From a virus: 43,928 nucleotides of DNA. This document shows positions 12,288-35,944 of this stretch, in pieces. The notes beneath the pieces were generated by a model. That model did not search any database and had not been told where the DNA came from. It saw only the letters and a program-made list of their open reading frames with translations. Numbering within the stretch: the first letter of the stretch is position 1; every line of letters begins with the position of its first letter. The stretch covers positions 1-43,928 of the IMG/VR virus record IMGVR_UViG_3300017963_000389; one strand, given 5' to 3'. Both the position numbers and the translations under genes were made by a program.

Positions 12288-12743
12288 ATGGCATTCAGCG
12301 TTGATGATGTAAAAAGCTCTGACCTCAAGTTTGATGGGTGGAGACAAGAAGAACAAGACGTCACTTTAGATGGTGCTGCAGGTTCTGGCGCTGTTGGTAC
12401 TGTGAGTTTGTTCACTGTCACTGGGTCAGTAATTGCAAAAGTGTATGCGATTTGCTCAACAAACGTGGCAGGAGCTGGAGCGACACTCGAAGTAGGTGTC
12501 ACTGGAAGCACAGCAGCAATCATTGCTCAAACAACTGGCACAGACATTGATGCAAATGAGATCTGGCATGACGCAACACCAGATGCAGGAATAGAAGCCA
12601 GCTCAGTAGCAACAGAGAACGTAATAGCAAACGGCCTTGACATATTCATGACTGTTGGCACAGCAAACGCAACAGGCGGGGTGCTCAAATTTATTTGCTT
12701 GTGGAAACCACTCAGCAAAAATGGAGACATAACCCCTGCATAA
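12288..12743 (+). CDS. Virion protein of beta-rich type
   Basis: 151 residues, rich in Ala, Gly, Thr and Val (GAAGSGAVGTVSLFTVTGSV; GATLEVGVTGSTAAIIAQTT), with no signal peptide. The pattern resembles phage capsid-fibre or decoration proteins found between capsid and connector genes. No family can be named from the sequence. Confidence 0.5.
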   Translation: MAFSVDDVKSSDLKFDGWRQEEQDVTLDGAAGSGAVGTVSLFTVTGSVIAKVYAICSTNVAGAGATLEVGVTGSTAAIIAQTTGTDIDANEIWHDATPDAGIEASSVATENVIANGLDIFMTVGTANATGGVLKFICLWKPLSKNGDITPA

Positions 12744-12765
12744 ACACTTTGAGGGGTGAAAAAGG

Positions 12766-13200
12766 ATGAATAAAATCCTAAAAACGCTTGTAATATTCTC
12801 TTTGATACTTATACCTGTCCTGGTATTGGCAGTAGACTTTTCACCACAGGGCAACATCAATCTCAAGAGCAGATATAACATAACAAATTATTGGGGGGGT
12901 GCATGCACGAATGGCACCGTCACAGACATCCTTGATAACGGGTCGTTTGTGTGTTCTCCTGAAGTTCCAGGTCTTGAGATGAATTGGACTGGTCTGAAGA
13001 ATTATCCTGTTGCTTGTCCTGGGGGTAGCTATATCACTGCGTTGAACGATTCTGTCACATGCACTGCAGCCATGAAAACCACAGGGGATAGCGTAACAGG
13101 AAACTACACCATTGATGGCAACTTGAACGTCACTCAGAACGTCACTATTGGTGAGGCTGTCCTTTACTGGAATGGTACTGCTCTTGTGATAGAAGGGTGA
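12766..13200 (+). CDS. Secreted, heavily sequon-bearing small protein
   Basis: 144 residues. Residues 1-22 (KILKTLVIFSLILIPVLVLA) are a Sec signal peptide. The remaining 120 residues hold nine N-glycosylation sequons (for example NIT, NGT, NWT, NVT) and four cysteines, so export and glycosylation by the archaeal AglB pathway are likely. GAGGGGTG precedes ATG 12766. The sequence NGTVTDILDNGSFVC is like linker regions of archaeal surface proteins. It sits directly before the giant secreted protein and may act with it. Confidence 0.65.
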   Translation: MNKILKTLVIFSLILIPVLVLAVDFSPQGNINLKSRYNITNYWGGACTNGTVTDILDNGSFVCSPEVPGLEMNWTGLKNYPVACPGGSYITALNDSVTCTAAMKTTGDSVTGNYTIDGNLNVTQNVTIGEAVLYWNGTALVIEG

Positions 13201-13210
13201 TTCAGTGAGA

Positions 13211-16200
13211 ATGACAAAACTTGTAATTTTGCTTGTAATATTCTTTGCAACAGTAGATCTCGCTTTCGCTTCTATTTCATCCACCCCTTTTTTTATCGAT
13301 GATGTGTTGTACTCAAATAGTTCGATTTATGCTGTTGGCAATGTTACTTCAAACGAGTCTGATTGGGAAGAAAACAGTAGCGGTTTTTATACGATAAACG
13401 GAACAAAAAGCACGACATATTCGTTCACTGAAGTAAGGACTTTGTGGTCAGGATATCAAGGCTACAATTCATCTGTTTGGTACGATAGTGGTAATCACGA
13501 CGGCATACCCCCTCGCTTGAACTGCACTACAATCAAAGAGAACTGTGTTGTTGATTTTGGACACAACACCACCAAATACAACGGGGGGGTGGGCGGATGG
13601 AATGATTCGTTGTACTACATGGATTTTGTCGACTTGTATGGTGCAAGACAAAACCTTTCAGAATATGTGAACGTGACTGGTTCTTACATCACAATGTGGA
13701 TATATGTTGAGAACATCACCACTCTCGAGTATTTGCAAAATGATAATGCTTATAACCCTTATATTTTGAGGTTTTATTTCACAGGAAGCAGCACCGATTG
13801 GCAAAGTGCATTTAAGTATGATATACAAAAAGGGGATCTTCAAGAAGGATGGAACTTGTACTACAGAGATCTCGGAGATGTCACTTCAACAACCTGCACT
13901 GGTGATCCACCGAACCAATGTAATACGAGCAGGATAAACTTCATGGCATTTCATTGGGGAAATGAATTTGGCAATCAGAACGAGATCAACGTAAGTCTTG
14001 GTGACTGGAAAATAGGAGATATAAAAATAGGAAAAGGGTATCCTTTCTTGAGGCAATATGAGGCAGACAGAGGGGACCCTGTTGGTTTCAATTACACTGT
14101 TTGCGGGCACCAATCCGGGTGTACATCAGAAACAACACTCACAGACAAAGTGCTCCAAGACTCCCCCCCAATACAGTATTTCGGAACAAAAATTGATGGG
14201 TCGATAAACGTGGATGGATTAGTTTATTGTCATCCCGGAACTTATTTTGATCACGATACTGATGCATTATCTACTATGTACGTCAAATTTTTCTTGAATG
14301 GTGGTTTGGTTTCTACTCAATCTTCTGTTTTGCTCAATTTAGCAGACGTAGCAGAAAGCGTAGGAGATGTGGTGTCTTGTAGCGTTACTTATGAAACTCA
14401 ACTCCCTAACGGGACCAAAGTGAACAGTTCAGAGTATAGTAGCTCAAATGAGACGGTGCTAGGAGTCACCAGAATCAATGTTGATAGGTCGCTGGTAATC
14501 CACAATATAAGCGAATGGATTTATGGCCAAGGGAACAGCCTGCGTCCTCAAAGAAGCTCTGATACAGCATTCGACCCAACTACGAGAACCTTCATAGAAG
14601 AGCAGCTCAATGCGTCTATAACTGCTGGATTTACAAGCACGAGGTGGGGTGGGTGTGATGCTAACTGGTATGTGTGGTATAAATGCTACGTTGATGACAC
14701 TGAAGGCTTCTGGGGAAAAGGGTGTGGAGGAACATGGGAGTATTATAATTGTTCTCAAGACGCATCAAATCCGTATGTTCTATTGAACGACATATATAAT
14801 TATTCTGTCCAATTGGGTGTTGGAATGGTTGAGTTCACAACTCAAGTAAGCAACAACGGGACTAATACAACCCCGAGCACCCATGTGAATGGCTCATATT
14901 CTGCAGGGTTTGTCAATTACACAAACATCAACCAGTCATGGAATATTACGTTTTGGGAGATAGGTAATGAGGTTAGCTCAAGCACACAATATGGTGATGA
15001 TACCAACGCCACACGATACGCAGAAGAATTCATTGATCATTGCACTTCAATGAAAGCAGTTGATCCTTCAGTGAAATGCGGGCTCGTCTTGACTTCTCTC
15101 AATGAAGAAGATGATGCTGGAAATAATTGGAACAGGGAAGTTATGCGGGTGGCTGGCAATTATTCAGATTACTTTGTTGACCATCCTTACGAAGGGAGCC
15201 AACTTCCTAATAGCTGGCACTGGTTTCAAACAGAAGATTACGAGATTGTTCTTATTGAAGATGGAAATTGGAGTTTTGGGGTTTATGCGATGAGTGAAGG
15301 TAGTTCAGTTCGGATAACTGTGCAGGATTATGAGAACGTCCTTGTTGATCAATACTTTGGTGACTTAACATACAGCGACAACGGACACGCTTATTCTCTT
15401 CAAGAAACAAACACCACATTCATGCGTAGAGGTTTAAAAACAGTCACAATAGCTAAGTCTGGAAGCTACAATACTTATGTTGCTGACCCGCGTTATGTTA
15501 AGTACGATGTTGAAGAAGCATTTGATTTCGACTCTGACACAAGAGCTCTGTTTTACTGTAATTACACTGTTGACTTGAATTGCACAAGCAGATATGGAAC
15601 TGGAACTCCTGTGTGGGTGGAAAGAGACGTCCCAACTGGTGGTCCGATATGGATTCCTGAAGGAAAATTCGGCGGAGGATTCATAAACAACAATTCTGCG
15701 GATGAAATCTGGTATAATGTTACAGATAACATCAACTTCTCAAGTGGCACGATAGCATTTTGGGTCTATGACATACCTGGAGGAAATAATTATTGGAACT
15801 ACCCAGAAGAACGCATGTTTTTTAATTATGGAACAACCTGGAGCACGAGCACATTTCAATTCCTCAAAGGAACAGGGCCGAACAATAATGTAGTGTTTAG
15901 GTCGTATAACTCATCTGGATATCCTGCAGGAATAAGTGTTTCGTTTCCCTCTAACAGAACTACTGATGGCGGGGCAAATTTGAGCGAAGGAGTGTGGTAT
16001 CATTTAGCTGCAACTTGGGATTGTTCACAATTCAGGTTATACCTTGACGGGGTGTTGATGGATGATGAGGATCTTCCTGGGTGTTGGATAGAAGATTGGG
16101 GGCACGCAGATTTTTCTGTTGGAAGTTATCATGACGGATCAAACCCGGTAAGGATGAGGATGGACGATCTTGTGGTTTTTGATACTGCTTTGACTACGGA

Positions 16201-17188
16201 GGAAATCAAGGAGCTAATAGGGCAAAGAATTTATTATTTTAACATCACAAACTTCACTGCACAGATGGAAGCGGACCTTTCCCCTCACAAACAAATGGAG
16301 CACGACCTAGCAAATATTTCAGCAACCTCGGCTATTTACATGAATCACACTAACAAGATTCATGCGACAGAATGGTTATGTCACCCCACAACACTCTATT
16401 ATCCTGGGTGGGGTGAGTGGGAAACAAGGTGGTGGGTTTGCGATGGCCTAAGTAACGCTCTTCACTTCCATGCTTTAATGGAAAATGATGATTATGAAGC
16501 AGCACACATGTGGATTCCGAGCAGTGGTGGTGTTGGTAGGAACCCAAGCACTTTTTATTGGACTGACCTTCAGAGAAGAACACCACAGTATTGGGTGATG
16601 AATATGTTCAGTCAGCACTCGGGGAATCAGCTTCTTAATGCAACCCAGGAAAACACCAGGTCATTCACTTATTCAGATCTTGGTGACATATTGGATGTTG
16701 AGTACATAAACTCTGTTGCTACAGTTGAGAGCGACGGATCCGCCCTGTATTTAAATGTCATCAATTCAGAAGAAAAGAATAGGACTGTTGAGATTAACAT
16801 TTCTGGGTTCGGGTTTTCCTCAAATGTGACAATCTATACATTGAAAGGGGATTCTTATGACGACAAAAACCAGTATGATGAACACATCCAAAAAGAAACT
16901 ACTTATCAAACAATCATAGTTCCAATATTTAATTATACTCTGGAACCGTTATCTATAGTGACTTTTGAATTTAGAAGCGGGTGTGTTGAACCTCAAGAAA
17001 ACACTGATTGGATTGTTGTAGATAGTAATTGTTCTTGGAGCAGCCGAAACATTGATATAGGCACAGGTAAATTTATATGCACGAACTGCAGAATAGATTT
17101 TGAAGATATCAACATTACAGTCAATGACTGGAGTGTTGAAAATGGGAGGATAGGATTGACCCCCCCATTTAAATTTGCATCGAGGTGA
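13211..17188 (+). CDS. Giant secreted protein with GH51-like glycosidase and LamG modules
   Basis: About 1325 residues. Residues 1-20 are a signal peptide. Residues about 20-420 are beta-rich with many sequons. A clan GH-A barrel follows. FWEIGNE carries the probable acid/base Glu587, and HATEWLCHP carries the probable nucleophile Glu1054, as in GH51-like arabinofuranosidases. Between them lie a beta-sandwich (about 670-760) and a LamG/concanavalin-like domain (about 835-1003). The tail (from about 1170) matches the GH51 C-terminal beta domain. The start may be ATG 13211 or GTG 13205. It probably degrades or binds host surface glycans. Confidence 0.7.
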   Translation: MTKLVILLVIFFATVDLAFASISSTPFFIDDVLYSNSSIYAVGNVTSNESDWEENSSGFYTINGTKSTTYSFTEVRTLWSGYQGYNSSVWYDSGNHDGIPPRLNCTTIKENCVVDFGHNTTKYNGGVGGWNDSLYYMDFVDLYGARQNLSEYVNVTGSYITMWIYVENITTLEYLQNDNAYNPYILRFYFTGSSTDWQSAFKYDIQKGDLQEGWNLYYRDLGDVTSTTCTGDPPNQCNTSRINFMAFHWGNEFGNQNEINVSLGDWKIGDIKIGKGYPFLRQYEADRGDPVGFNYTVCGHQSGCTSETTLTDKVLQDSPPIQYFGTKIDGSINVDGLVYCHPGTYFDHDTDALSTMYVKFFLNGGLVSTQSSVLLNLADVAESVGDVVSCSVTYETQLPNGTKVNSSEYSSSNETVLGVTRINVDRSLVIHNISEWIYGQGNSLRPQRSSDTAFDPTTRTFIEEQLNASITAGFTSTRWGGCDANWYVWYKCYVDDTEGFWGKGCGGTWEYYNCSQDASNPYVLLNDIYNYSVQLGVGMVEFTTQVSNNGTNTTPSTHVNGSYSAGFVNYTNINQSWNITFWEIGNEVSSSTQYGDDTNATRYAEEFIDHCTSMKAVDPSVKCGLVLTSLNEEDDAGNNWNREVMRVAGNYSDYFVDHPYEGSQLPNSWHWFQTEDYEIVLIEDGNWSFGVYAMSEGSSVRITVQDYENVLVDQYFGDLTYSDNGHAYSLQETNTTFMRRGLKTVTIAKSGSYNTYVADPRYVKYDVEEAFDFDSDTRALFYCNYTVDLNCTSRYGTGTPVWVERDVPTGGPIWIPEGKFGGGFINNNSADEIWYNVTDNINFSSGTIAFWVYDIPGGNNYWNYPEERMFFNYGTTWSTSTFQFLKGTGPNNNVVFRSYNSSGYPAGISVSFPSNRTTDGGANLSEGVWYHLAATWDCSQFRLYLDGVLMDDEDLPGCWIEDWGHADFSVGSYHDGSNPVRMRMDDLVVFDTALTTEEIKELIGQRIYYFNITNFTAQMEADLSPHKQMEHDLANISATSAIYMNHTNKIHATEWLCHPTTLYYPGWGEWETRWWVCDGLSNALHFHALMENDDYEAAHMWIPSSGGVGRNPSTFYWTDLQRRTPQYWVMNMFSQHSGNQLLNATQENTRSFTYSDLGDILDVEYINSVATVESDGSALYLNVINSEEKNRTVEINISGFGFSSNVTIYTLKGDSYDDKNQYDEHIQKETTYQTIIVPIFNYTLEPLSIVTFEFRSGCVEPQENTDWIVVDSNCSWSSRNIDIGTGKFICTNCRIDFEDINITVNDWSVENGRIGLTPPFKFASR

Positions 17189-17193
17189 CTAAG

Positions 17194-17577
17194 ATGGACA
17201 AAAAAAACGTACTCATGGCCGCAATCGCAGCAGCCTTACTTATAGCAGGGGTGGGCTTGGACAGAACCTTGCTCACAGAGAACGAGTTTGAGAACGCCTA
17301 CATTTGCTCAGTCACAGAAGAAGTAAGGATCTTCTATGGCGGTATAAGCGGTACAGCTTATACAGGTTATCCAAACGAAGGCACAAGAGTAGGACAAAAG
17401 AGATGCATTGACGAAGGAGGAGCAAGAGGCACATGGATCTCACTCACTGAATACGCTGAACAGAACGGTCTCAACCCCTTGGATTTCATAGTCCAAGAAG
17501 AAGGAAAGGAGTTACCAGGAACAGATCAAACTGCCACTCGGTATAGTTGTGGAGTGGAGGAATGCATAGAAATTTGA
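17194..17577 (+). CDS. Small exported or membrane-anchored cysteine-bearing protein
   Basis: About 127 residues. A basic start (MDKKN) and hydrophobic residues 6-20 (VLMAAIAAALLIAGVGL) indicate a signal peptide or anchor. The exported part has four Cys (ICSV, KRCID, SCGVEECIE) that could form disulfides. GAGGTGA overlaps the previous stop. Start ATG 17194 was preferred over GTG 17185. No family is recognised. It follows the giant glycosidase and may be a partner. Confidence 0.6.
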   Translation: MDKKNVLMAAIAAALLIAGVGLDRTLLTENEFENAYICSVTEEVRIFYGGISGTAYTGYPNEGTRVGQKRCIDEGGARGTWISLTEYAEQNGLNPLDFIVQEEGKELPGTDQTATRYSCGVEECIEI

Positions 17578-17591
17578 GAGGTTGAATCATC

Positions 17592-18986
17592 ATGGCATAC
17601 ACTAATTACACACCAAGAACGGAGAACATAACAGGCGCAAGCCTCACTGGTTCTGATGGCACGGCCAACCGAACCTACACGATGTCTTACTCCAACCCTT
17701 TAGCCGCAGGAGTAGATATCATAATAAACGGGGTGACGCTTCACCAGGGAGCTGGAAAAGATTACACTGTCTCAAGCAGCGTGATTACTTTTTTGAACAT
17801 AGTTGACAACACAGACGTTATCACAATTCATTATTTCACGACGACAACAGGCACCACGAGCACAACGCTGAAATATGCAACCACGTTGCAATTGGCTGCG
17901 GTTCTTGGGATAAAAAGCGACATTCCCTCTTGGGATGTGGGGAACAGCCCAAGTAACGAGGAGGTGGGGACAGGTGACAATTCAACAACTGTCTTTTATC
18001 TTGATCATCGTAACATTCTGTCTGATAGTTATACTCTTTATTATGGAGCTACCGCCGCAACGACCACCACGCTTACTGAGACAACTCATTACACTCTTGA
18101 CAAAGCTACTGGGAAGATTACGCTCACTGGTGCGGGAGTGACGTTGCTGGACACAAACAAGATCTATGCAGAGTATTCTTATCTGAACTTAGATATTACG
18201 GATGCTTATTTAATCGATGTTTTGCAAAGATGTGAAGCAGAGGTTGACAACGCAGTGAACACGACATTCACAGATGGAACAGCAGATAACCCTTCTTATC
18301 CTACGGCAACAGATGTTCAGCCAAGTAAAGGAAGGTATGATAGGACTTATTTCACAAGGAAACGACCTTTGATAGATGTCACCTCTAAGCTTGCATCAGA
18401 CATCACAGATTCGGATCTTACGCTGGACGTAACGACTGGTGAAGGTGTGAACTTCCCAAGCGCAGGAACTATAGTGATAGGTTCAGAGATAATCACTTAT
18501 ACTGGAGTGAGCACAGACACTCTCACTGGACTTACCAGGGGGGTGGATGATAGCACAGCAGCAGCTCACTCAGAAGAAGACGAGATCCACACAACAGTGC
18601 TTGAGGTTAGCGGAACGGATGAAGGAACAACACCCTCATGGACGACGATGCAATGGAAGAGCGACTTCTATGCTGAAGAAAATGGAAAAATATATATATC
18701 TGACAATATCATATTGAATCAGGTATATGTAAACAACGTCCTGCTCGCCACGAGTGGCGTGTCAAACAGGACAAGAATCCGCTACCTTTACGGATGGTCA
18801 AGCATCCCTAAAGACATCACACGACTGACACTATTATTTGCAAAGCGAGCTTTGAGGAATGACACAATCGGGGCTTCCTTGGTGAAAGGAAGAAACGAGT
18901 TCAACCCTGAAACACTCGCTGTCGATGACCGAGAAATCCAATCAATCATTGACGCATACATCGAATTCCCTATGGGTAACACATAG
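17592..18986 (+). CDS. Head-tail adaptor-like protein with beta-rich modules
   Basis: 464 residues. LKYATTLQLAAVLGI resembles the start of phage head-tail adaptors. A segment with ITDAYLIDVLQRCEAEVDNA and the end (PKDITRLTLLFAKRALRNDT ... IQSIIDAYIEFP) show the helical adaptor core. Two beta-rich stretches are added: N-terminal LTGSDGTANRTYTMSYSNPL and central DLTLDVTTGEGVNFPSAGTI. It is placed just before the neck and tail-completion genes, which supports a connector role. Longer than the usual adaptor of about 110-200 residues. Confidence 0.6.
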   Translation: MAYTNYTPRTENITGASLTGSDGTANRTYTMSYSNPLAAGVDIIINGVTLHQGAGKDYTVSSSVITFLNIVDNTDVITIHYFTTTTGTTSTTLKYATTLQLAAVLGIKSDIPSWDVGNSPSNEEVGTGDNSTTVFYLDHRNILSDSYTLYYGATAATTTTLTETTHYTLDKATGKITLTGAGVTLLDTNKIYAEYSYLNLDITDAYLIDVLQRCEAEVDNAVNTTFTDGTADNPSYPTATDVQPSKGRYDRTYFTRKRPLIDVTSKLASDITDSDLTLDVTTGEGVNFPSAGTIVIGSEIITYTGVSTDTLTGLTRGVDDSTAAAHSEEDEIHTTVLEVSGTDEGTTPSWTTMQWKSDFYAEENGKIYISDNIILNQVYVNNVLLATSGVSNRTRIRYLYGWSSIPKDITRLTLLFAKRALRNDTIGASLVKGRNEFNPETLAVDDREIQSIIDAYIEFPMGNT

Positions 18987-20036: not shown

Positions 20037-20222
20037 ATGAAAGTAAAGAATATCATGGACGGAACCCGTAAGTTCAGGTACAAAGGAAAATGGGTGTATG
20101 TTGAAGCGGGAGACTCAGTTGAAGTAGACAAGATCATTGACGACCCCTCCTTCGAGATGCAAGGAGAAGAAAAGCCGACAAAGAAAAAAACAAAGAAAAC
20201 CAAGGAGGATGATTCACCATGA
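20037..20222 (+). CDS. Small protein with SH3-like start and Lys-rich tail
   Basis: 61 residues. KFRYKGKWVYVEAGDSVEV looks like a short SH3/KOW-like barrel start, followed by a Lys/Glu-rich tail. The stop overlaps the first tail-tube start (20219). Small proteins of this form are frequent between tail-completion and tube genes. The exact function is unknown. Confidence 0.55.
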   Translation: MKVKNIMDGTRKFRYKGKWVYVEAGDSVEVDKIIDDPSFEMQGEEKPTKKKTKKTKEDDSP

Positions 20223-20815
20223 CTGTAGCAGCAATAGATGATGCGTGGATGGAAACCTGTCTCATTGGTATCTCTGTTATCGGAGGGAGTGAGGTTCAGT
20301 TTGCAGCAATAACCGAAACTGTTGACTTCGATGTTGGAGATAAAGACATTGAGGGGATTCCAATCCTGAATGGCGGAAGGGTTACAAAGTTTAATCCTGA
20401 AGCGGATAGTACAATAACATTTGAGGCGTACCCAGTAGAAGCAGGTACTGACTCTGGAACAACAGGGCAAGGCTTCTTTGACCTGGTTCATTCGCAAGAT
20501 GCAACAGAGCCAACCAGGATAGAAAACGACCATGTGAGAAACAAGTACAGGGTTGTTGTCACCTGGACGACAGATGTTATAACAACAGCAAGCCAAGACA
20601 TCGATGTGAACGAACACGCCTTTAGGATCGCAATGGCTAATGGAAGGTTCACAAGCGTGAAACCGAGCTTTACTGATGGCATCCTGAAGTTCACTGTGAC
20701 GTTTAAATGCCCTGCATTTGACAAGTCATCAGGGTCTAATGTGATGATGGAAAGCACCGATGGGACAATACTGATTGCGGCACTGAACGCATACACGACC
20801 AGTAACAACTGGTGA
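20219..20815 (+). CDS. Tail tube protein, paralogue 1
   Basis: 198 residues. It is closely related to the next gene: DAWMETCLI, ETVDFD-GDKDIEGIPILNGG, RVTKFNPEAD, ITFEAYPVEAGT, EPTRIENDHVR, FTSVKPSFTDGILKFTVT and SNVMMESTDGT are shared almost word for word. The beta-rich form and position before the tape measure identify a tail tube subunit (stacked hexameric rings). The gene overlaps the preceding stop by 4 nt. Confidence 0.75.
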   Translation: MTVAAIDDAWMETCLIGISVIGGSEVQFAAITETVDFDVGDKDIEGIPILNGGRVTKFNPEADSTITFEAYPVEAGTDSGTTGQGFFDLVHSQDATEPTRIENDHVRNKYRVVVTWTTDVITTASQDIDVNEHAFRIAMANGRFTSVKPSFTDGILKFTVTFKCPAFDKSSGSNVMMESTDGTILIAALNAYTTSNNW

Positions 20816-20830: not shown

Positions 20831-21433
20831 ATGGCAGCAGATCCAGTTGATGATGCATGGATGGAAACTTGTCTTATCACCATATCAGCGATTAGCGCAG
20901 CAACAAATGTTGAGTTTGCTGGGCTAACCGAAACTGTCGACTTTGATATTGGTGACAAAGACATTGAAGGAATACCCATATTGAATGGGGGTAGAGTGAC
21001 AAAGTTCAATCCCGAAGCAGATACCACAATAACATTTGAGGCATATCCTGTTGAAGCAGGAACGCACACAGGAACTACAGGAACTGGCTTTTATGATCTA
21101 ATGCACAGCCAGGACGCTTCAGAACCCACAAGGATTGAGAATGATCATGTGAGAACGAAGTACAGGGTTTTGGTGCTTTGGACGAATGATACTGCTCTGA
21201 CAAGCGCAACGCAAGCGACAAACTTAAACAAGTCAGGGTTAAGGGTTGGAATTGCAGAAGCAAGGTTTACGAGTGTGAAGCCTTCGTTCACTGATGGAAT
21301 CCTGAAGTTTACTGTGACAGCGAAGTGTGCAGCATTTGATAAGAGCGCAGACTCAAATGTGATGATGGAAAGCACTGATGGAACAGCTTTGCTTCCTGCA
21401 ATAAACGATTACACCACTTCATATAAGTGGTAA
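20831..21433 (+). CDS. Tail tube protein, paralogue 2
   Basis: 200 residues. It differs from paralogue 1 mainly in the first 30 residues and a middle stretch (residues about 110-145), where WTNDTALTSATQATNLNKSG replaces WTTDVITTASQDIDVNEHA. It starts after GGAGG and is followed directly by a T-tract. A tandem duplication is evident. One copy may build the bulk of the tube and the other a special ring, but which is which cannot be told. Confidence 0.75.
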   Translation: MAADPVDDAWMETCLITISAISAATNVEFAGLTETVDFDIGDKDIEGIPILNGGRVTKFNPEADTTITFEAYPVEAGTHTGTTGTGFYDLMHSQDASEPTRIENDHVRTKYRVLVLWTNDTALTSATQATNLNKSGLRVGIAEARFTSVKPSFTDGILKFTVTAKCAAFDKSADSNVMMESTDGTALLPAINDYTTSYKW

Positions 21434-23935: not shown

Positions 23936-24318
23936 ACAACGTAGTCCTCGGTGGAATCACCATTTACACGAAAAGAGTAGAGTTGAACCAGGGAAATCAG
24001 ATGGTGACAATCACACCACCACAGACAACCCAGAACCAAGATCAAGGAAAGAAAGACACTTTGATTGTTGACTTGTTCAGAATAGAAGAACGATTCACAG
24101 TTGATGGGTTCATAGAAAGCGATGATTTCGCTGCGTTCAAAGCATTAATCACAACTAAAGGCACAAAGACCATGACGTATCGTGGAACTGATTATGATGT
24201 CGGGATCGAAAAGACAAGTTGTGTTGAAGATCCTGAAGACAAGGATGACCAAACAAATAGCCCCGCACACTTTGATGTCAAGGTCACTCTTGTGGTAGGT
24301 AAATCATTTGGTAGCTAA
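23932..24318 (+). CDS. Distal tail or baseplate-like protein
   Basis: 128 residues. A beta-rich form (VVLGGITIYTKRVELNQGNQ; KDTLIVDLFRIEERFTVDGF) and a position directly after the tape measure, where distal tail proteins are usual. The 'IEERFTVDGFI' segment looks like part of a small tail ring subunit. The 3' end overlaps the start of the following giant gene. Assigned from position and pattern. Confidence 0.55.
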   Translation: MNNVVLGGITIYTKRVELNQGNQMVTITPPQTTQNQDQGKKDTLIVDLFRIEERFTVDGFIESDDFAAFKALITTKGTKTMTYRGTDYDVGIEKTSCVEDPEDKDDQTNSPAHFDVKVTLVVGKSFGS

Positions 24319-27300
24319 ACAAGAATTCACACTGGGCTTGCTGCTCATCGCAATACTCGTTTCTGGAGTAGTTTATGTTACGCTTGGCGATGTGGCGAAG
24401 TTCAGAATAGATGAAGACAAAGCGACAATTTATGTTCAACCAGATAACAGGTGGGTTGTTGGAGGAAGAGAGTACAGCAGGCTCTTTGACGGAAGCAGCA
24501 TAATGAACAGGGACAAGAGCTCTATTCGTATAGATACGTTCTTTGATCAATCAACTAAGAAGTTCACAGCAATAAGACAAACAAGTTACCAGAGAGGTCC
24601 TGTCATTCGTGAGACTTGGACTTTCAGTGGGACTATTGAAGATGTAGAGTTCTTTCCGATTAGTCACAAAGTTGAGATATTCAACGGGATGGGCTACTTT
24701 TATCGGTACACTGTCGATGAACTAACTGGGACACCCCCCAAGCAAAAGTTGGAAGGTAATCTTTCGCTTTCTTTCGGCAGGAAGATAAATGTAGATCTCC
24801 ATCCTGGATATAGGTGGGCTTGGATTGGTTGGCCTTATGGGAGTGATAGCCTGTCTGCTCAGTACAGCATACCTTCTGATTATGAGGTGTTTAATTTCAG
24901 GATGTATGACCCTGAATGGCAACCAGATGAGTCAACAAGCCCGCGCAGCTTCATTGAAGATTGGGAAGGAGACCCTCCAGGAGACATAAACACTACGTTT
25001 TGGGATTACTGGAGATCCGACGGAACATACGGGAGGTATCAAGTTACAGGAACAGGAACCCCTCACGCAGGCTCATACCACCTTTTGCTTGACGTTTCTG
25101 ACAGTATTAATGAGAACAGGAACAAGATGAAAACCCAAACTGGGATGTTCACAGATGCGACAGATGTTTATTTGAAGTTCTGGGTCAAAGAAATCGGTGA
25201 GGAGGATGATCAGTGTCCTACTTCTTGGACTGGGGAAGACCCGGGAGCCAACGCTGGCGACTGTGTTGCGTTTACTTGTGATGGGAATACTTGGCACAGG
25301 ATACTTGATCTCACCGCATCAACTTACGGGAGTTATACAGAAATAGAGATAAATATCACAGCAGATGGTGATTGGTGTGGGACTGCAAATTCTTCATTCC
25401 AAATAAGCTTTGGGCAAGATGACAATTATCCTCATTCAAGCGATGGTGTCATGTATGATGACATTAACATCACCGCAACATTTTATGAAGCACCAGAGCC
25501 GACATTTGGGTGTGGGGCTGATCCAGGGATATACATTGATGGGAACAACGTGGATGTTGACATAGAATATGAGAGTAATGTGACTGTGTGTGCTTTGGCA
25601 AGTGACCCTGCAGAGACAGTTTGTGTCACTGCAGATCATGGGGAAATCAGGGAGAATTATAGTTGTGGGGTGAATAGCACAGAGTTCACTTGGCTGGCAA
25701 CTCACAACATCATGCGGTTTAATGACACAGACACCACCAAAATAGTTAATTTCACCCAAGATGCGGGAGGAGTGATCAATTATACCTTGCGTGATGACGT
25801 AAGGAATGATAGCACAATTGAGTATTTCAGGTTTGATCTTTCTGGGGTTCCTTCAACCTCCGAGGTTTTATGGAGTTACCCTGATGAAAGCGGAACAAAC
25901 TCTGATGGGTCATGGGATGCGGGACAGCCAGCAGCAAATGCGTGGGATGAAGATTATGCCACTTATGCTTTAGTGGATTCTGGTGTTGCACATCTTTTTA
26001 TGAATTATACTTGTACTGATTGCACTGGGAGTATTGATTCTTCACAATCAGTGGTGGAGTTTAGGGGTGCTTGTGATGTTGGGCCGAGTGAACCCACTAA
26101 TTATACTCCTGGAGATTATGATTGTAACATGGATCCTCTTGAGATAAGGATCACACAAGACAGTAGTGGAATAGGAAAGGGAAATTATACTTGTAAAAAC
26201 AGTTCTGATGAGTGGGGTCTTATTTGTAGTTGGAGCGCAAACAACGCATTCTATGAGAGCAGTGTGTGGATGTATGATCTTGGACTTGCAAATTATAGTA
26301 AGAATGTGAAGCTTGATTTGCTTATTGATGGGACTTATGAGTGGGTGAGCTGGGGTGATTTTAAGGAGACAGAGATTGATTCTTACGAGTATAATAATAG
26401 TGAGTCGAACCAGTCAACATCTTTTAATGGAAGTGGGACTTCTGCAAATTATTTGAAACTTCCAACACACACTAACACCACAAGTGCCACTCTTGATTTG
26501 TATGGTACAACTAATGATTATTTTGCCTCAGAAACAAAGGAGTTATGGGTGTGGAAAAATTCAGATGGTAAAAGGTACACCTCTTTTCATCCAGGGATAG
26601 CTAATTATGATGATGACGATGATTACTTTTACCTCTTTGGATATGCTGTAAGAACAGGGGTTGCTGGGATACAATACAATTACACCCTTAAAATAGCCCA
26701 TGCAGGCGGGGTTGGGTCTGTAACTGAAAAGAAAGAGATCCCTGTAGAAATTGGTTCTGCGGGGTGTGTTGTTTACAAGACGGGTTCTGATTCTGGTTTC
26801 TATGTTTTAGGGGGGCTTAACTCATCTAGTGATGCTGTTGATGATGCATATCATTATAATCCTTCAACAGATACTTGGACTTCAAAAACAAACCTACCAG
26901 GAAACTGGGCTTATGGGGATTGTGTTCTTAAAGATGATGATGTGTACCTTGTTGGCGGGTATAATGAAACAGGAGAAATGGATGTTACTTGGATTTACAA
27001 CATATCAGACAATACTTGGACTGAGGGGAATACAGTAAATGATACTATTTGGTGGAATGCGGTTGAAATCCTTAATGATACTCATTTAATAACTTGGTGC
27101 GGGTGTTCAGGCGCAGCTTGTCTTGTTGGATCAACCAAAGACACATATACTTACGATATTGCTCTTGACACATGGACAGAACTTGATTCTGGAGCTCACA
27201 TGCCAAATAATATGTGGTTGTGTAGACCAGGAAAAGTAGGGGATGAGATATATTCTTATGGTGGGGAGTGGGGTACTGCTCTTGATAAGGATTATTTTTA

Positions 27301-28300
27301 TGATGTTTATCGTTGGAACACTACTGTTGAAGAATGGGATATTATGCAGACAAACACTTCTTATTATCATTCTTATGATTCTTGTGATGAGAGGGATAAC
27401 CATGTATTTTGTTGGGGGCCTCAATCTTTTGGGGTGAGTGCGGAATATGAAGAAATATTCCATTACCCAAGTGCAGTCACTATGTCTGTTGGAAGTTTTG
27501 TGAATGCATCATATACGTCTGGGGGAGATCTTACTGAAACAGTGGCCAGCGTATCTAATTTTTCCAATGCGATTAATGAAGAGTTAGGTATTTGCACTCC
27601 AGATTCTGAGGGTTACTGTCATATCCCTCTTACGTTTACTAATCGTGGTGCAGGAATAATATTTTCCGAGAACTTAGAGATTCTAACCCCCATCCCAAGA
27701 ATTGACTTGGGGGAGAAGTATATGAGCTGTGATACGGAGAACTGCACAGTTAATTTCAGCGTGACCAGTGATGCTAATGGGGTTTTGAATCTTACAAACA
27801 TGAGTGTTCAAATTCTTGGAACAGGACATATTAACTTCAGCAGTCTTGATAGTGCTGCTGACTTCCATAATCATACTGCAACCATTTATTATAGTAATTG
27901 GAATTATTCATTCCCTGGAACAATAGAATACATTGAGTTTATTCCGTCAAAGCCGAATAGCTCTGATGTTGAACCTTATGGGCAGTTTAATAACAGCCCG
28001 ATCCTGAACATCACAGCCCTCAATACTGGTGGGAAGAATATGAACTGGTCTGCTTATCTTAATGAGACTGATTCTTGTGTTGATCTCTTTTTCAATACTG
28101 AATGGAATGTGAGTACTGCAACCAAGATGAATGATGCTGGGTGGATTGAGTTCGCAACGAATAAGGCTCCAGGGGATTATTGGAACATTTATATGTGGGC
28201 TAATTATAGTTGCTCTGATGATACTTGGCGGGTGTGGTACCCTGAGTTTTTCTTCAGGGGTTGTTGTGTGACTTGTATATGTGATAATTCAACAGGATGA
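24308..28300 (+). CDS. Giant signal-anchored protein with Kelch propeller
   Basis: 1330 residues from TTG 24308. Residues 9-27 (LGLLLIAILVSGVVYVTLG) are a signal or membrane anchor. The rest is beta-rich with dozens of N-glycosylation sequons and many cysteines. Residues about 817-1044 contain Kelch-type repeats (VYLVGGYNETGEMDVTWIYN ... DNTWTEG), a beta-propeller used for binding. The C-terminal half includes Cys-rich domains ending in CCVTCICDN. It lies between tail and hub genes, so a receptor-binding or host-surface role is likely. Confidence 0.6.
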   Translation: MVAKQEFTLGLLLIAILVSGVVYVTLGDVAKFRIDEDKATIYVQPDNRWVVGGREYSRLFDGSSIMNRDKSSIRIDTFFDQSTKKFTAIRQTSYQRGPVIRETWTFSGTIEDVEFFPISHKVEIFNGMGYFYRYTVDELTGTPPKQKLEGNLSLSFGRKINVDLHPGYRWAWIGWPYGSDSLSAQYSIPSDYEVFNFRMYDPEWQPDESTSPRSFIEDWEGDPPGDINTTFWDYWRSDGTYGRYQVTGTGTPHAGSYHLLLDVSDSINENRNKMKTQTGMFTDATDVYLKFWVKEIGEEDDQCPTSWTGEDPGANAGDCVAFTCDGNTWHRILDLTASTYGSYTEIEINITADGDWCGTANSSFQISFGQDDNYPHSSDGVMYDDINITATFYEAPEPTFGCGADPGIYIDGNNVDVDIEYESNVTVCALASDPAETVCVTADHGEIRENYSCGVNSTEFTWLATHNIMRFNDTDTTKIVNFTQDAGGVINYTLRDDVRNDSTIEYFRFDLSGVPSTSEVLWSYPDESGTNSDGSWDAGQPAANAWDEDYATYALVDSGVAHLFMNYTCTDCTGSIDSSQSVVEFRGACDVGPSEPTNYTPGDYDCNMDPLEIRITQDSSGIGKGNYTCKNSSDEWGLICSWSANNAFYESSVWMYDLGLANYSKNVKLDLLIDGTYEWVSWGDFKETEIDSYEYNNSESNQSTSFNGSGTSANYLKLPTHTNTTSATLDLYGTTNDYFASETKELWVWKNSDGKRYTSFHPGIANYDDDDDYFYLFGYAVRTGVAGIQYNYTLKIAHAGGVGSVTEKKEIPVEIGSAGCVVYKTGSDSGFYVLGGLNSSSDAVDDAYHYNPSTDTWTSKTNLPGNWAYGDCVLKDDDVYLVGGYNETGEMDVTWIYNISDNTWTEGNTVNDTIWWNAVEILNDTHLITWCGCSGAACLVGSTKDTYTYDIALDTWTELDSGAHMPNNMWLCRPGKVGDEIYSYGGEWGTALDKDYFYDVYRWNTTVEEWDIMQTNTSYYHSYDSCDERDNHVFCWGPQSFGVSAEYEEIFHYPSAVTMSVGSFVNASYTSGGDLTETVASVSNFSNAINEELGICTPDSEGYCHIPLTFTNRGAGIIFSENLEILTPIPRIDLGEKYMSCDTENCTVNFSVTSDANGVLNLTNMSVQILGTGHINFSSLDSAADFHNHTATIYYSNWNYSFPGTIEYIEFIPSKPNSSDVEPYGQFNNSPILNITALNTGGKNMNWSAYLNETDSCVDLFFNTEWNVSTATKMNDAGWIEFATNKAPGDYWNIYMWANYSCSDDTWRVWYPEFFFRGCCVTCICDNSTG

Positions 28301-32736: not shown

Positions 32737-33860
32737 TTGCGATTACACTTTTCACCGACTTGTGAATACCCTAAAGTCTTTAAGAACTCATGCACATAAT
32801 CACAACCCAAAGTATATACTTTGTTCATCTTCACCCTGTACTGAATCTCCTGATCCCTCACAGGAGCACCCATACGCTGATTCCACTCAAGAACAGCCTG
32901 TAACACCTCACCAGGGTCCATCTCAGCCTTCAACTCATTAATAAGAATAAACATCGCCCTCTGATATCCATCACCAACAGCCCTAAAATCATCACCCAAA
33001 ATGAAATTCACACAATCCTGCACTCCTGGCTTCTTCGGATTAATCCACTTCATCAAACTTGATTCTCTGCGCTTAACCTTACCCCTCTTCCGTTCAGCAT
33101 CCCTCTTCGCAAAGTAATCAAGCACCAAGCCCTCAGGATCATTCGGCTCGCTCATCCTCAACCCTCCAATGCGAGGATAAATCCTGTTCTCTTCGTTGCA
33201 GATGTAAGGAACGAAGCTCACATCCTTCCAAGTATAACCAAGAAAGGTTTTATACCCGAGCTTGTTCCTGCTCATCTCACTCCTTATCAGGTGCTTTGGG
33301 TTTGCCATGTCAGTATCAAACTTCCTGAGCCCGAGATCCCAGCAGGTTATCATTTTCATCCTGAGATATGCCATGAATTGCTTGACAAACGTGCTTTTAT
33401 ACCTGTGTTCATTGATTATCCTTTCCTGCAAAGCCATGTTAATGTTTAGAAGGCACTTGAAACTGAAATAAACATGAATATGGACACTTTTATTCCCAGA
33501 ATAGTAATAGAGGGGTTGGAAGCCTTCCTTCTCTAATATCGCACCTATGAGCTTCACAGCATCATAATTCTCTTCGTATGTAGGGTAGTCAGATTCAATA
33601 ACGATCTCACAAGGCAACACACTACGATGAACATCATAAGCATTCCTGAGCTCCTCAAAACTGAACCCACCATACCAAGTCTTCCACTGAGTCCACTTAT
33701 CCCTATCATCCTTGTCCTTCACCGCAAGCTTCATGCTATTCTCAGACAAGTGATTAAGCTCCATCAAATGATAGTACCTCTGAGTGGCTATGCTCATATC
33801 CAAGTTTCCCTGAAGGTAATCCCACCCAGTCCAATCAAAATAAGGGTTTGCATACATCAT
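32730..33860 (-). CDS. Archaeo-eukaryotic primase (AEP superfamily)
   Basis: 376 residues from ATG 33860, which overlaps the helicase stop as ATGA. The catalytic core shows IVIESDYP (Glu89/Asp91), YYYSGNKSVHIHVYF (the sxH motif, His127/129) and KFDTDMANPKHLIRSEMSRN followed by KLGYKT (third acidic motif and nucleotide-binding loop), as in AEP primases. The C-terminal third is helical and ends with two Cys (LGCDY, GEKC). It makes primers for viral replication with the MCM-like helicase. Confidence 0.8.
   Translation of the reverse strand: MMYANPYFDWTGWDYLQGNLDMSIATQRYYHLMELNHLSENSMKLAVKDKDDRDKWTQWKTWYGGFSFEELRNAYDVHRSVLPCEIVIESDYPTYEENYDAVKLIGAILEKEGFQPLYYYSGNKSVHIHVYFSFKCLLNINMALQERIINEHRYKSTFVKQFMAYLRMKMITCWDLGLRKFDTDMANPKHLIRSEMSRNKLGYKTFLGYTWKDVSFVPYICNEENRIYPRIGGLRMSEPNDPEGLVLDYFAKRDAERKRGKVKRRESSLMKWINPKKPGVQDCVNFILGDDFRAVGDGYQRAMFILINELKAEMDPGEVLQAVLEWNQRMGAPVRDQEIQYRVKMNKVYTLGCDYVHEFLKTLGYSQVGEKCNRKI
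32809..32823 (-). promoter_or_regulatory. AAAGTATATACTTT palindrome inside the primase gene
   Basis: AAAGTATATACTTT (32809-32822), a perfect 14-bp palindrome, lies about 100 bp upstream of the palindrome near 32715 and within primase codons. A repressor bound to both could loop the DNA. The spacing and repeat suggest an operator pair, which is inferred. Confidence 0.5.
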
Positions 33861-35944
33861 TCTGCAAGCTCCAAGTTTGCATTCTCCATCCAATGAGGCC
33901 GAACAGTACCATCATCTTCAATTATAAGCCCCATATCCCTCAGAATCACATAGCTCATCCTGTACTCGTTCTTGCTCATCTCCTTCTCAGCAAACTCTTC
34001 AGTCTCAAAACGATTCACAGGCCGCTTCTTCTCACAAATCTTACGATACAAATACTGTGCGTTCTCAGGAAGATAGTATTGTCTGCGCTCTAAAGGAAGC
34101 CTCTTAATCTTCTCAGCATCAACCCAAGACCTGATGATAGAACTCCACACCTCCCTGCACAAGTTATAATCCTGCTCCTGCGCACTAAAAGCCATATCAT
34201 GCGAGAAAAGACACCTCGCCTTCACAAGCCCATCCAACAAGCACTTCAAATGATGCTTATGCCTGGTCTTATAATGGCTCAACAAGTCCTCAGAAAGCAA
34301 AGGCAAAGGCTCTGCATGGATCTCCCTGAGCTTTGCATCATCCATGTCAACCTGAAAAGTATGCAAGTAATCCAGTATGCTCACCCAATCCTTATCATCC
34401 ATGTCATAATCATGCTCCCTCAAATCAAGCTCGTCAGCATTCCTGATCATGTTAACGTGCTGGCTCGTCTGATAATAAATCAGCCACCTTGAAAGAAAAC
34501 TCATGTCAAACGCCTTTAACAAGTCCTCAACTGCATGAACTTCCTTCACAGGATTACTTGTTGCGAAAGCTCGAGCTGTCATGTTCACCTTGATACTGCT
34601 GATTCCAGACCCTGCTTCCCTCTTCTGATGCTCCAACAAGTCATTCATCATAGCAACACTCTCCTCCCTATCACTCCCTTCCTTCGTTGTCTTTGTCCTG
34701 ACAATGCAGCGCAGGAACTCATCCAAGAAAGCAAACCTGTTGCTCTCAGCAAGATATCCAAGCTTTGCAGGGCTGTGCCTAAAGCTCGGAATGAGATTCT
34801 TTAACGTGCTACTGCTTCCTGAGAACAGGAATCGAGCTTCCTTCGACCTAGCCCATAGCCTGTTCAGAAGCGTCGACTTCCCACTCCCAGGATCTCCAAT
34901 CATAAGAATGTGCATTGGGTACTCGTTCTCCAAGCCATACTTTGCGTGAAGAAGCCACCCCCAGACAAGCCATTTAAACCAGACAGGATGCTTTTGGATG
35001 ACCATCTTGCCTGTTTTCTTGTGCTTGATAGTGAAAGGCAACTCAAAAAGGTTACGCTTATTAATATTGAGAAATGCAAGTCTGGCCTTGAACTCTCCAT
35101 GATCCTTGTACTTAATAATCCTGTTCTTCACACTCTGAGCGAAGATGTAAGGTAGCTTTGTCGGAAGCCTGCTGCTCTCAGTGAGGATCTTATAATCATC
35201 AACCTGAGTCACCACCCCAGTAACTATGTAATCCCCGATAGTCAAGTCATCCTTTGTCAACAAGATGAAGTCCTGGTTGTGCTCACTGATGAACCTGTAC
35301 ACCCTGAACGGAACTTCAATCTCCTTTATCTTCACATACTCCTTCAGGCTGACCTTCTCACCGAACAAAGCTATTTTTTTGATGAACGGATCTCCTGTTT
35401 CTTTGTCAACCTTCTTGCTTTCAACAAGTGTCGCAACAGGAATTTTTTGTGGATGCTCGAACACTTCCGCAACAATCTTCCCGTAAAGAGTTTTCTCCCT
35501 GCTGATATAGAACTTAATAAGCCCTGTTTTTTCATAGACACCGTTGGTGAGGCGCTTGAGCTGTTCGTAGTTGAATCCAAGATGGATTCCAACGATGCCT
35601 TCGGTATTATAACCGACCCTGCTGTACTTGGCAATCCATTCTTGTTCAACTTGATCTTCCGCTTCTTGATAAAGACTGATTTGCTTTGTTTCCTTGTGCC
35701 TCTCGATTTCTTCATCGAGGAATCTGAGATCCTCATTTTCCACCCCCTCACTCATCAAATAAGTCTTGATACGAGTGAGAATATCCAAGAATTCTTGTTT
35801 GTTCTTCGCATTAATGTCTTCAGGAATACTACTGCACATGAGAGCAAGCTCTGATTCTATCCTCCTCCACATAGCATAGCCCCCAAAGCTGTTCTTCAGG
35901 AGTTCCATGATGATAGCCTTTTGGCTGGAGGATTTAATTTCCAT
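33857..35944 (-). CDS. mcm: MCM-like replicative helicase
   Basis: 695 residues. The N-terminal part includes an OB-like stretch (GDYIVTGVVTQVDDYKIL, about 238-255). The AAA+ core has Walker A GDPGSGKS (350-357), Walker B FAFLDE (404-409), a pre-sensor insert (LLEHQKREAGSGISSIKVNM), sensor 1 ATSNP (461-465) and SRW (485-487) in place of the usual SRF arginine finger. A winged-helix-like region follows (CEKKRPVNRFETEEFAEKEM). It is a divergent MCM that unwinds the viral replication fork. The start is preceded by GAGGTTCT and overlaps the gene before it. Confidence 0.8.
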   Translation of the reverse strand: MEIKSSSQKAIIMELLKNSFGGYAMWRRIESELALMCSSIPEDINAKNKQEFLDILTRIKTYLMSEGVENEDLRFLDEEIERHKETKQISLYQEAEDQVEQEWIAKYSRVGYNTEGIVGIHLGFNYEQLKRLTNGVYEKTGLIKFYISREKTLYGKIVAEVFEHPQKIPVATLVESKKVDKETGDPFIKKIALFGEKVSLKEYVKIKEIEVPFRVYRFISEHNQDFILLTKDDLTIGDYIVTGVVTQVDDYKILTESSRLPTKLPYIFAQSVKNRIIKYKDHGEFKARLAFLNINKRNLFELPFTIKHKKTGKMVIQKHPVWFKWLVWGWLLHAKYGLENEYPMHILMIGDPGSGKSTLLNRLWARSKEARFLFSGSSSTLKNLIPSFRHSPAKLGYLAESNRFAFLDEFLRCIVRTKTTKEGSDREESVAMMNDLLEHQKREAGSGISSIKVNMTARAFATSNPVKEVHAVEDLLKAFDMSFLSRWLIYYQTSQHVNMIRNADELDLREHDYDMDDKDWVSILDYLHTFQVDMDDAKLREIHAEPLPLLSEDLLSHYKTRHKHHLKCLLDGLVKARCLFSHDMAFSAQEQDYNLCREVWSSIIRSWVDAEKIKRLPLERRQYYLPENAQYLYRKICEKKRPVNRFETEEFAEKEMSKNEYRMSYVILRDMGLIIEDDGTVRPHWMENANLELAE

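Follow-up and report, generated by a model that had tools for sequence, protein, structure and literature searches.

The stretch of DNA analysed here, referred to as the window, is the 43,928-base IMG/VR virus record IMGVR_UViG_3300017963_000389, and the gene under study, at positions 13211-17188 on the plus strand, encodes a GH51-like glycosidase of 1,325 residues in which the GH51-related sequence is interrupted by a stretch that holds a LamG domain. We consider it probable that this protein is an exported, N-glycosylated, retaining GH51-like hydrolase (clan GH-A) that acts on a surface or extracellular glycan, and that it is made by a tailed virus with a probably archaeal host. The stronger result, stronger than the nested-domain architecture, is the context of the gene: it lies between the head and tail genes, in a slot that is filled differently from one related virus to the next, a feature absent from the earlier note on this DNA. 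More tentatively, and a little short of evenly balanced, we propose that a lineage of tailed viruses, probably archaeal, reserves slots within its virion gene block for proteins that are Sec-exported and N-glycosylated, act on surfaces and can replace one another; the cargo would comprise glycosidase, esterase, protease and lectin arrays directed at the outside of infected or neighbouring cells, and the member in the window would be a GH51-like enzyme whose catalytic domain houses a lectin module.

The gene has an ATG start, an in-frame GTG upstream at 13205, and no internal stops. The earlier note had counted 467 residues between the glutamates of a WEIGNE motif (residues 582-587) and an ATEW motif (residues 1052-1055) and had proposed a GH51-type affinity; the count is correct, and the affinity is borne out on both sides of the gap. 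Pfam places PF06964 (Alpha-L-AF_C) at residues 1123-1248 (E 2.3e-8, 34.9 bits against a cut-off of 27), and the best matches among solved structures are the GH51 arabinofuranosidases 3s2c, 3ug3 and 4atw. The 3s2c alignment falls into two stretches, residues 574-664 on chain positions 159-241 and residues 1124-1253 on chain positions 344-480, which are spaced by 459 residues here and by 102 in 3s2c. A profile built from nine GH51 sequences (from plasmids, one phage-collection record and one viral contig) gave scores of 46 bits for residues 421-668 and of 34 bits for residues 1010-1262, while 300 shuffles of each half reached a maximum of 4.1 bits overall and no more than 3.0 bits for 421-668; this profile did not match residues 669-1010 or the N-terminal residues 21-420. 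When residues 669-1012 were omitted for analysis only, the GH51 alignment became continuous, starting shortly ahead of strand 4 and running through the whole C-terminal domain, and both E587 and E1054 aligned on the GH51 catalytic glutamates, in agreement with the roles of acid/base and nucleophile that had been proposed for them. GH51-invariant positions kept in this alignment are G585, N586, E587, G595, W640, D653, H658 and Y660 and, on the C-terminal side, E1054, L1142, N1185, N1220 and S1248. Among these, G585-N586-E587 falls on the invariant G-N-E at the end of strand 4, where the acid/base glutamate is preceded by an asparagine, and H658 and Y660 correspond to two invariant residues of Bacillus AbfB, H236 and Y238, so that the His-x-Tyr of strand 5 is present. 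E1054 aligns on the invariant E295 of AbfB and is assigned as the putative nucleophile because its segment sits between two significant blocks; 70 residues separate it from the C-terminal block, compared with 63 in 3s2c, provided that residue 281 is the nucleophile of that chain, which is suggested by where the match with the plasmid protein L016 ends.

The catalytic domain can thus be divided into a first part, residues 421-668 (14471-15214, delimited by the 3s2c match, the GH51 profile and the residue alignment), which holds RWGGC (from residue 478), the predicted acid/base E587 (codon 14969-14971), H658 and Y660, and a second part, residues 1013-1122 (16247-16576), where strands 6-8 are expected and which holds the predicted nucleophile E1054 (codon 16370-16372); all parts of the gene are given on the plus strand. 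Between them lies the interrupting stretch of about 344 residues (approximately 669-1012, 15215-16246, with approximate boundaries), which starts just after H658-P-Y660, the equivalent of the strand-5 His-x-Tyr. A LamG domain, named in the earlier note, occupies residues 843-1000 (15737-16210; PF13385, E 6.3e-15, 56.1 bits against a cut-off of 27.6), whereas the second, CBM-like beta-sandwich of that note was not confirmed, as the part before LamG (approximately 669-775) gave no useful match in Pfam or PDB; the idea of binding domains nested in the catalytic domain therefore stands for LamG and lacks a recognised second module. The second catalytic part is followed by the GH51 C-terminal beta-sandwich, residues 1123-1258 (16577-16984, PF06964). 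E587 and E1054 would lie in one (beta/alpha)8 barrel, closed by this C-terminal sandwich, with the LamG-containing stretch following barrel strand 5 as an insertion. The active site of (beta/alpha)8 enzymes is lined by the loops that follow the strands, and modules nested after strand 5 would therefore flank the cleft, where the lectin-like module may hold a glycan. The matched solved GH51 chains are 482-574 residues long and, by length, none has such an inserted module.

Approximately 20 related viral contigs were collected through capsid and neck-gene searches, and in these relatives the order of capsid and tail genes is conserved while the space between the capsid gene and the counterpart of the conserved gene at 17592-18986 (plus strand), which borders the slot on the tail side, varies. 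The head-side border is a conserved gene at 12288-12743 (plus strand), 59% identical in L010. Where the window has the glycosidase, L009 has a fibre-like protein of 1,012 residues and a protein of 1,367 residues, L010 a fibre-like protein of 1,161 residues, L023 LamG arrays, L089 a single LamG array, and L005 a fibre-like protein and, behind it at the end of the contig, a subtilase. A large gene of this sort is absent from the slot in L012 and L013, and in L011, L025 and L027 the large exported-type genes are found in the portal-capsid interval instead. In the 13 related records searched, LamG was found in six and the GH51 C-terminal domain in none. The large slot proteins of the relatives (LamG arrays, CBM96/FGE-type protein, subtilase) have hydrophobic N-termini, and the glycosidase would be one of several interchangeable exported proteins of the slot. 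That it is instead an auxiliary metabolic gene helping the infected host to feed on polysaccharide seems very improbable; GH51 does occur among the viral auxiliary metabolic genes reported from tundra soil (PMC10127799), and the enzyme is of exported type, but the gene is located in the structural gene block, and what replaces it in the relatives is not another nutrient enzyme but binding proteins, a subtilase or fibre-like proteins.

Two of the proteins in these intervals have recognisable modules: the slot protein at L009:13205-17308 combines CBM96 with an FGE-sulfatase-type domain, and the protein at L027:5220-9863, in the portal-capsid interval, is an exported-type, sequon-rich protein of 1,547 residues that has a SASA domain (sialic acid-specific acetylesterase type) in addition to three LamG domains.

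The viral context assumed in the earlier note is secure, as TerL, portal, major head protein and tape measure were all matched with PHROG in the same record, identifying a tailed double-stranded DNA virus (Caudoviricetes). By coverage (83%), the nearest named TerL is that of Halogranum tailed virus 1, at 23.5% identity (E 2e-20), and the major capsid protein had no match in the phage collection. The host is likely archaeal; the signs, all indirect, are the sequon excess described below, a TerL nearest by coverage to that of a haloarchaeal virus, and a weakly MCM-like AAA ATPase. This ATPase (33857-35944, 695 residues) is 54-57% identical in five relatives; the MCM label is weak, as it fell below the Pfam cut-off and a six-member profile had no PDB match.

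Both the secretion-type N-terminus and the richness in N-x-S/T sequons claimed for the glycosidase were confirmed. Its N-terminus is hydrophobic and ends in AFA-S, and a putative Sec signal peptide covers residues 1-20 (MTKLVILLVIFFATVDLAFA, followed by S; 13211-13270), as judged by hydropathy, with the cleavage site placed by eye. Sequon numbers were compared with those expected from shuffling each protein's own residues and expressed as a z score; the glycosidase has 51 sequons against 18.7 expected (z 8.5). Among the window proteins tested, a strong excess was found in only three, namely the glycosidase and the products of 12766-13200 (z 5.2) and 24308-28300 (z 8.6), and all three have hydrophobic N-termini. 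The same division was seen in the relatives, where 26 non-core proteins with hydrophobic N-termini had a mean z of 4.0 while 58 core proteins had a mean of 0.10 and a maximum of 1.99; bacterial or phage glycoside hydrolase comparators did not exceed 1.4. The glycosidase also has 24 cysteines, which can be grouped into twelve pairs of neighbours, an arrangement that fits disulfides formed outside the cell. The enzyme would be exported during infection to act beyond the infected cell, its target being S-layer glycan or extracellular polysaccharide; its purpose might be release through the envelope, spread through a matrix or exclusion of competing viruses, alternatives that the data do not separate. 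Action on host surface polysaccharide, as the earlier note had suggested, is plausible, and we make no claim of activity on arabinan; overall, the observation behind that note holds at the sequence level and its interpretation is supported in part.

Several points weigh against this reading. The nucleophile segment alone (residues 1010-1122) scored -2.8 bits and was not significant against the GH51 profile. F-x-E-H, an N-terminal motif of the first barrel strand that is invariant in the eight GH51 sequences used, could not be placed, as the profile left this part unaligned, and by eye IYGQGNSLR stands in its place; some other positions invariant in GH51 could not be located either, so that the enzyme may have another substrate or be less active. 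Because F-x-E-H was not placed and the best single-sequence relatives are GH-A proteins, we call the protein GH51-like and do not claim arabinofuranosidase activity. AlphaFold2 models, each from an alignment of five rows (the window protein plus viral relatives), had a mean predicted local distance difference test score (pLDDT) of 34 for residues 421-1262 (842 residues) and of 41 for the insertion, and at these values they neither support nor refute the single barrel that we infer. Searches of IMG/VR and GTDB genomes with exact peptide patterns found no relative of the protein over its full length, and a capsid-alignment search of GTDB genomes identified no host genome (138 pattern hits, zero relatives). 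Finally, glycosylated structural proteins are known from HRTV-DL1, a haloarchaeal virus with head and tail (PMC10384203), and sequons by themselves are thus compatible with a role in the virion.

The first of these points bear on the possibility, which we judge improbable, that the protein is a catalytically weak or dead lectin or adhesin in which the GH51 fold has been retained and serves binding alone. The missing F-x-E-H and the weakly conserved nucleophile segment would fit such a protein, as would the LamG domain and the many slot cargoes in relatives that consist of LamG arrays with no enzyme recognised; by contrast, both catalytic glutamates, the preceding asparagine and the strand-5 histidine and tyrosine are retained. 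Somewhat less improbable, yet still unlikely, is that the protein is a virion component, such as a depolymerase-like neck or tail spike, which degrades surface glycan at entry and whose hydrophobic N-terminus serves for anchoring or trimerisation and not for export. The glycosidase gene does lie between head and tail genes, a second exported-type gene is stably placed beside a distal tail gene, and the structural proteins of HRTV-DL1 are a precedent for glycosylated virions. Yet no sequon excess is seen in the homologues that could be recognised as head, tail or replication proteins, and the signal-peptide-like N-terminus together with the 24 cysteines fits export. Tailed virions, moreover, are generally assembled in the cytoplasm.

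Compared with known systems, the exported hydrolase that we favour resembles GH51 alpha-L-arabinofuranosidases (3s2c, 3ug3, 4atw; Bacillus AbfB type) in the acid/base strand region, the C-terminal domain, both catalytic glutamates, the asparagine before the acid/base and the strand-5 histidine and tyrosine; it differs in the LamG insertion of about 344 residues, the large N-terminal region, the exported-type and sequon-rich sequence, and the F-x-E-H motif not found in its alignment. Exported GH-A proteins encoded on plasmids (actinobacterial and Flammeovirga; L016-L019), annotated as 'cellulose-binding protein' or Ig-like, include the best single-sequence match (29% over residues 564-710, E 1e-15 in a six-sequence comparison), share YWEIGNE and are also nearest to GH51 in PDB, but have neither an insertion after strand 5 nor a sequon excess. 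A lectin-like domain inserted inside a catalytic domain is known from the Vibrio cholerae sialidase (PMC2716378), and intramolecular trans-sialidases also have a domain inserted inside the catalytic domain (PMC4747158); these enzymes have the GH33 beta-propeller, a catalytic fold unrelated to the GH-A barrel. GH51 has been annotated on a viral contig from tundra soil, as a family assignment only, and the part of that report consulted does not describe a nested module, export or a slot (PMC10127799). Among archaeal tailed viruses (Caudoviricetes), Halogranum tailed virus 1 is the nearest example by TerL coverage, with the capsid unmatched as noted above. Hafunaviruses also have a variable host-contact gene region (PMC8651126), but its variable gene encodes a tail-fibre adhesin, whereas the slot in the window holds a large exported-type enzyme. 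In the open-access literature searched, we found neither a GH51-like catalytic domain with LamG after strand 5 nor a tailed virus whose structural genes include a slot with varying exported-type, sequon-selected proteins.

Other candidate relationships were set aside. GH39, for which a profile check had been suggested, gave no match, a Pfam scan at E<=10 returning PF13385 and PF06964 only. Among the viral loci fetched with a WEIGNE/WGIGNE pattern search, only L022 (the record of L047, cut at the contig end) has a strong GH51 match, and L031, L037, L038 and L040 are distant GH-A proteins instead. GH51 matches in the phage collection were unannotated faecal or Listeria-labelled fragments, of which the two opened were marked UNVERIFIED, and they were not counted as phage evidence. 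A match of 43 residues (42% identical) between the C-terminal tail and L031 was dropped as probably due to chance (E 0.002 among ten proteins). This tail, residues 1259-1325 (16985-17185), contains cysteines and is unrecognised; the N-terminal region, residues 21-420 (13271-14470), presumably consists of accessory beta domains and is likewise unrecognised, with no useful match in Pfam, PDB or plasmids.

The glycosidase gene starts 10 bases after the gene at 12766-13200 (plus strand), which encodes the exported-type, sequon-rich protein of 144 residues, and overlaps by 4 bases, at its stop codon, the gene at 17185-17577 (plus strand) for a small protein with a hydrophobic N-terminus. The N-terminus of the 144-residue protein (VDFSPQGNINLKSRYNI) matches fibre-like proteins of 536-1,012 residues in the relatives, and the protein looks like a shortened remnant or stub of that family. 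The regions covering the start codons and signal peptides of this gene and of the glycosidase gene (12763-12799 and 13208-13244) are 73% identical in DNA over 37 bases, which suggests a copied leader. The second large exported-type, sequon-rich protein (24308-28300, plus strand; 1,330 residues) has kelch repeats and adjoins the conserved distal tail gene; its N-terminal approximately 200 residues are conserved in L078, L082, L083, L087 and L089, where its counterparts are 825-1,908 residues long with differing modules. Elsewhere in the tail block, the genes at 20219-20815 and 20831-21433 are tandem paralogues (proteins 72% identical), at whose place L013, L079 and L082 have a version of 333-336 residues.

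While cytoplasmic assembly of virions is usual, strongly sequon-selected giant proteins of signal-peptide type sit here between capsid and tail genes and differ from one close relative to another. Should they prove to work extracellularly, they would be a so far unexplored way for viruses to modify archaeal surfaces, with a role comparable to that of phage depolymerases but with delivery by export.

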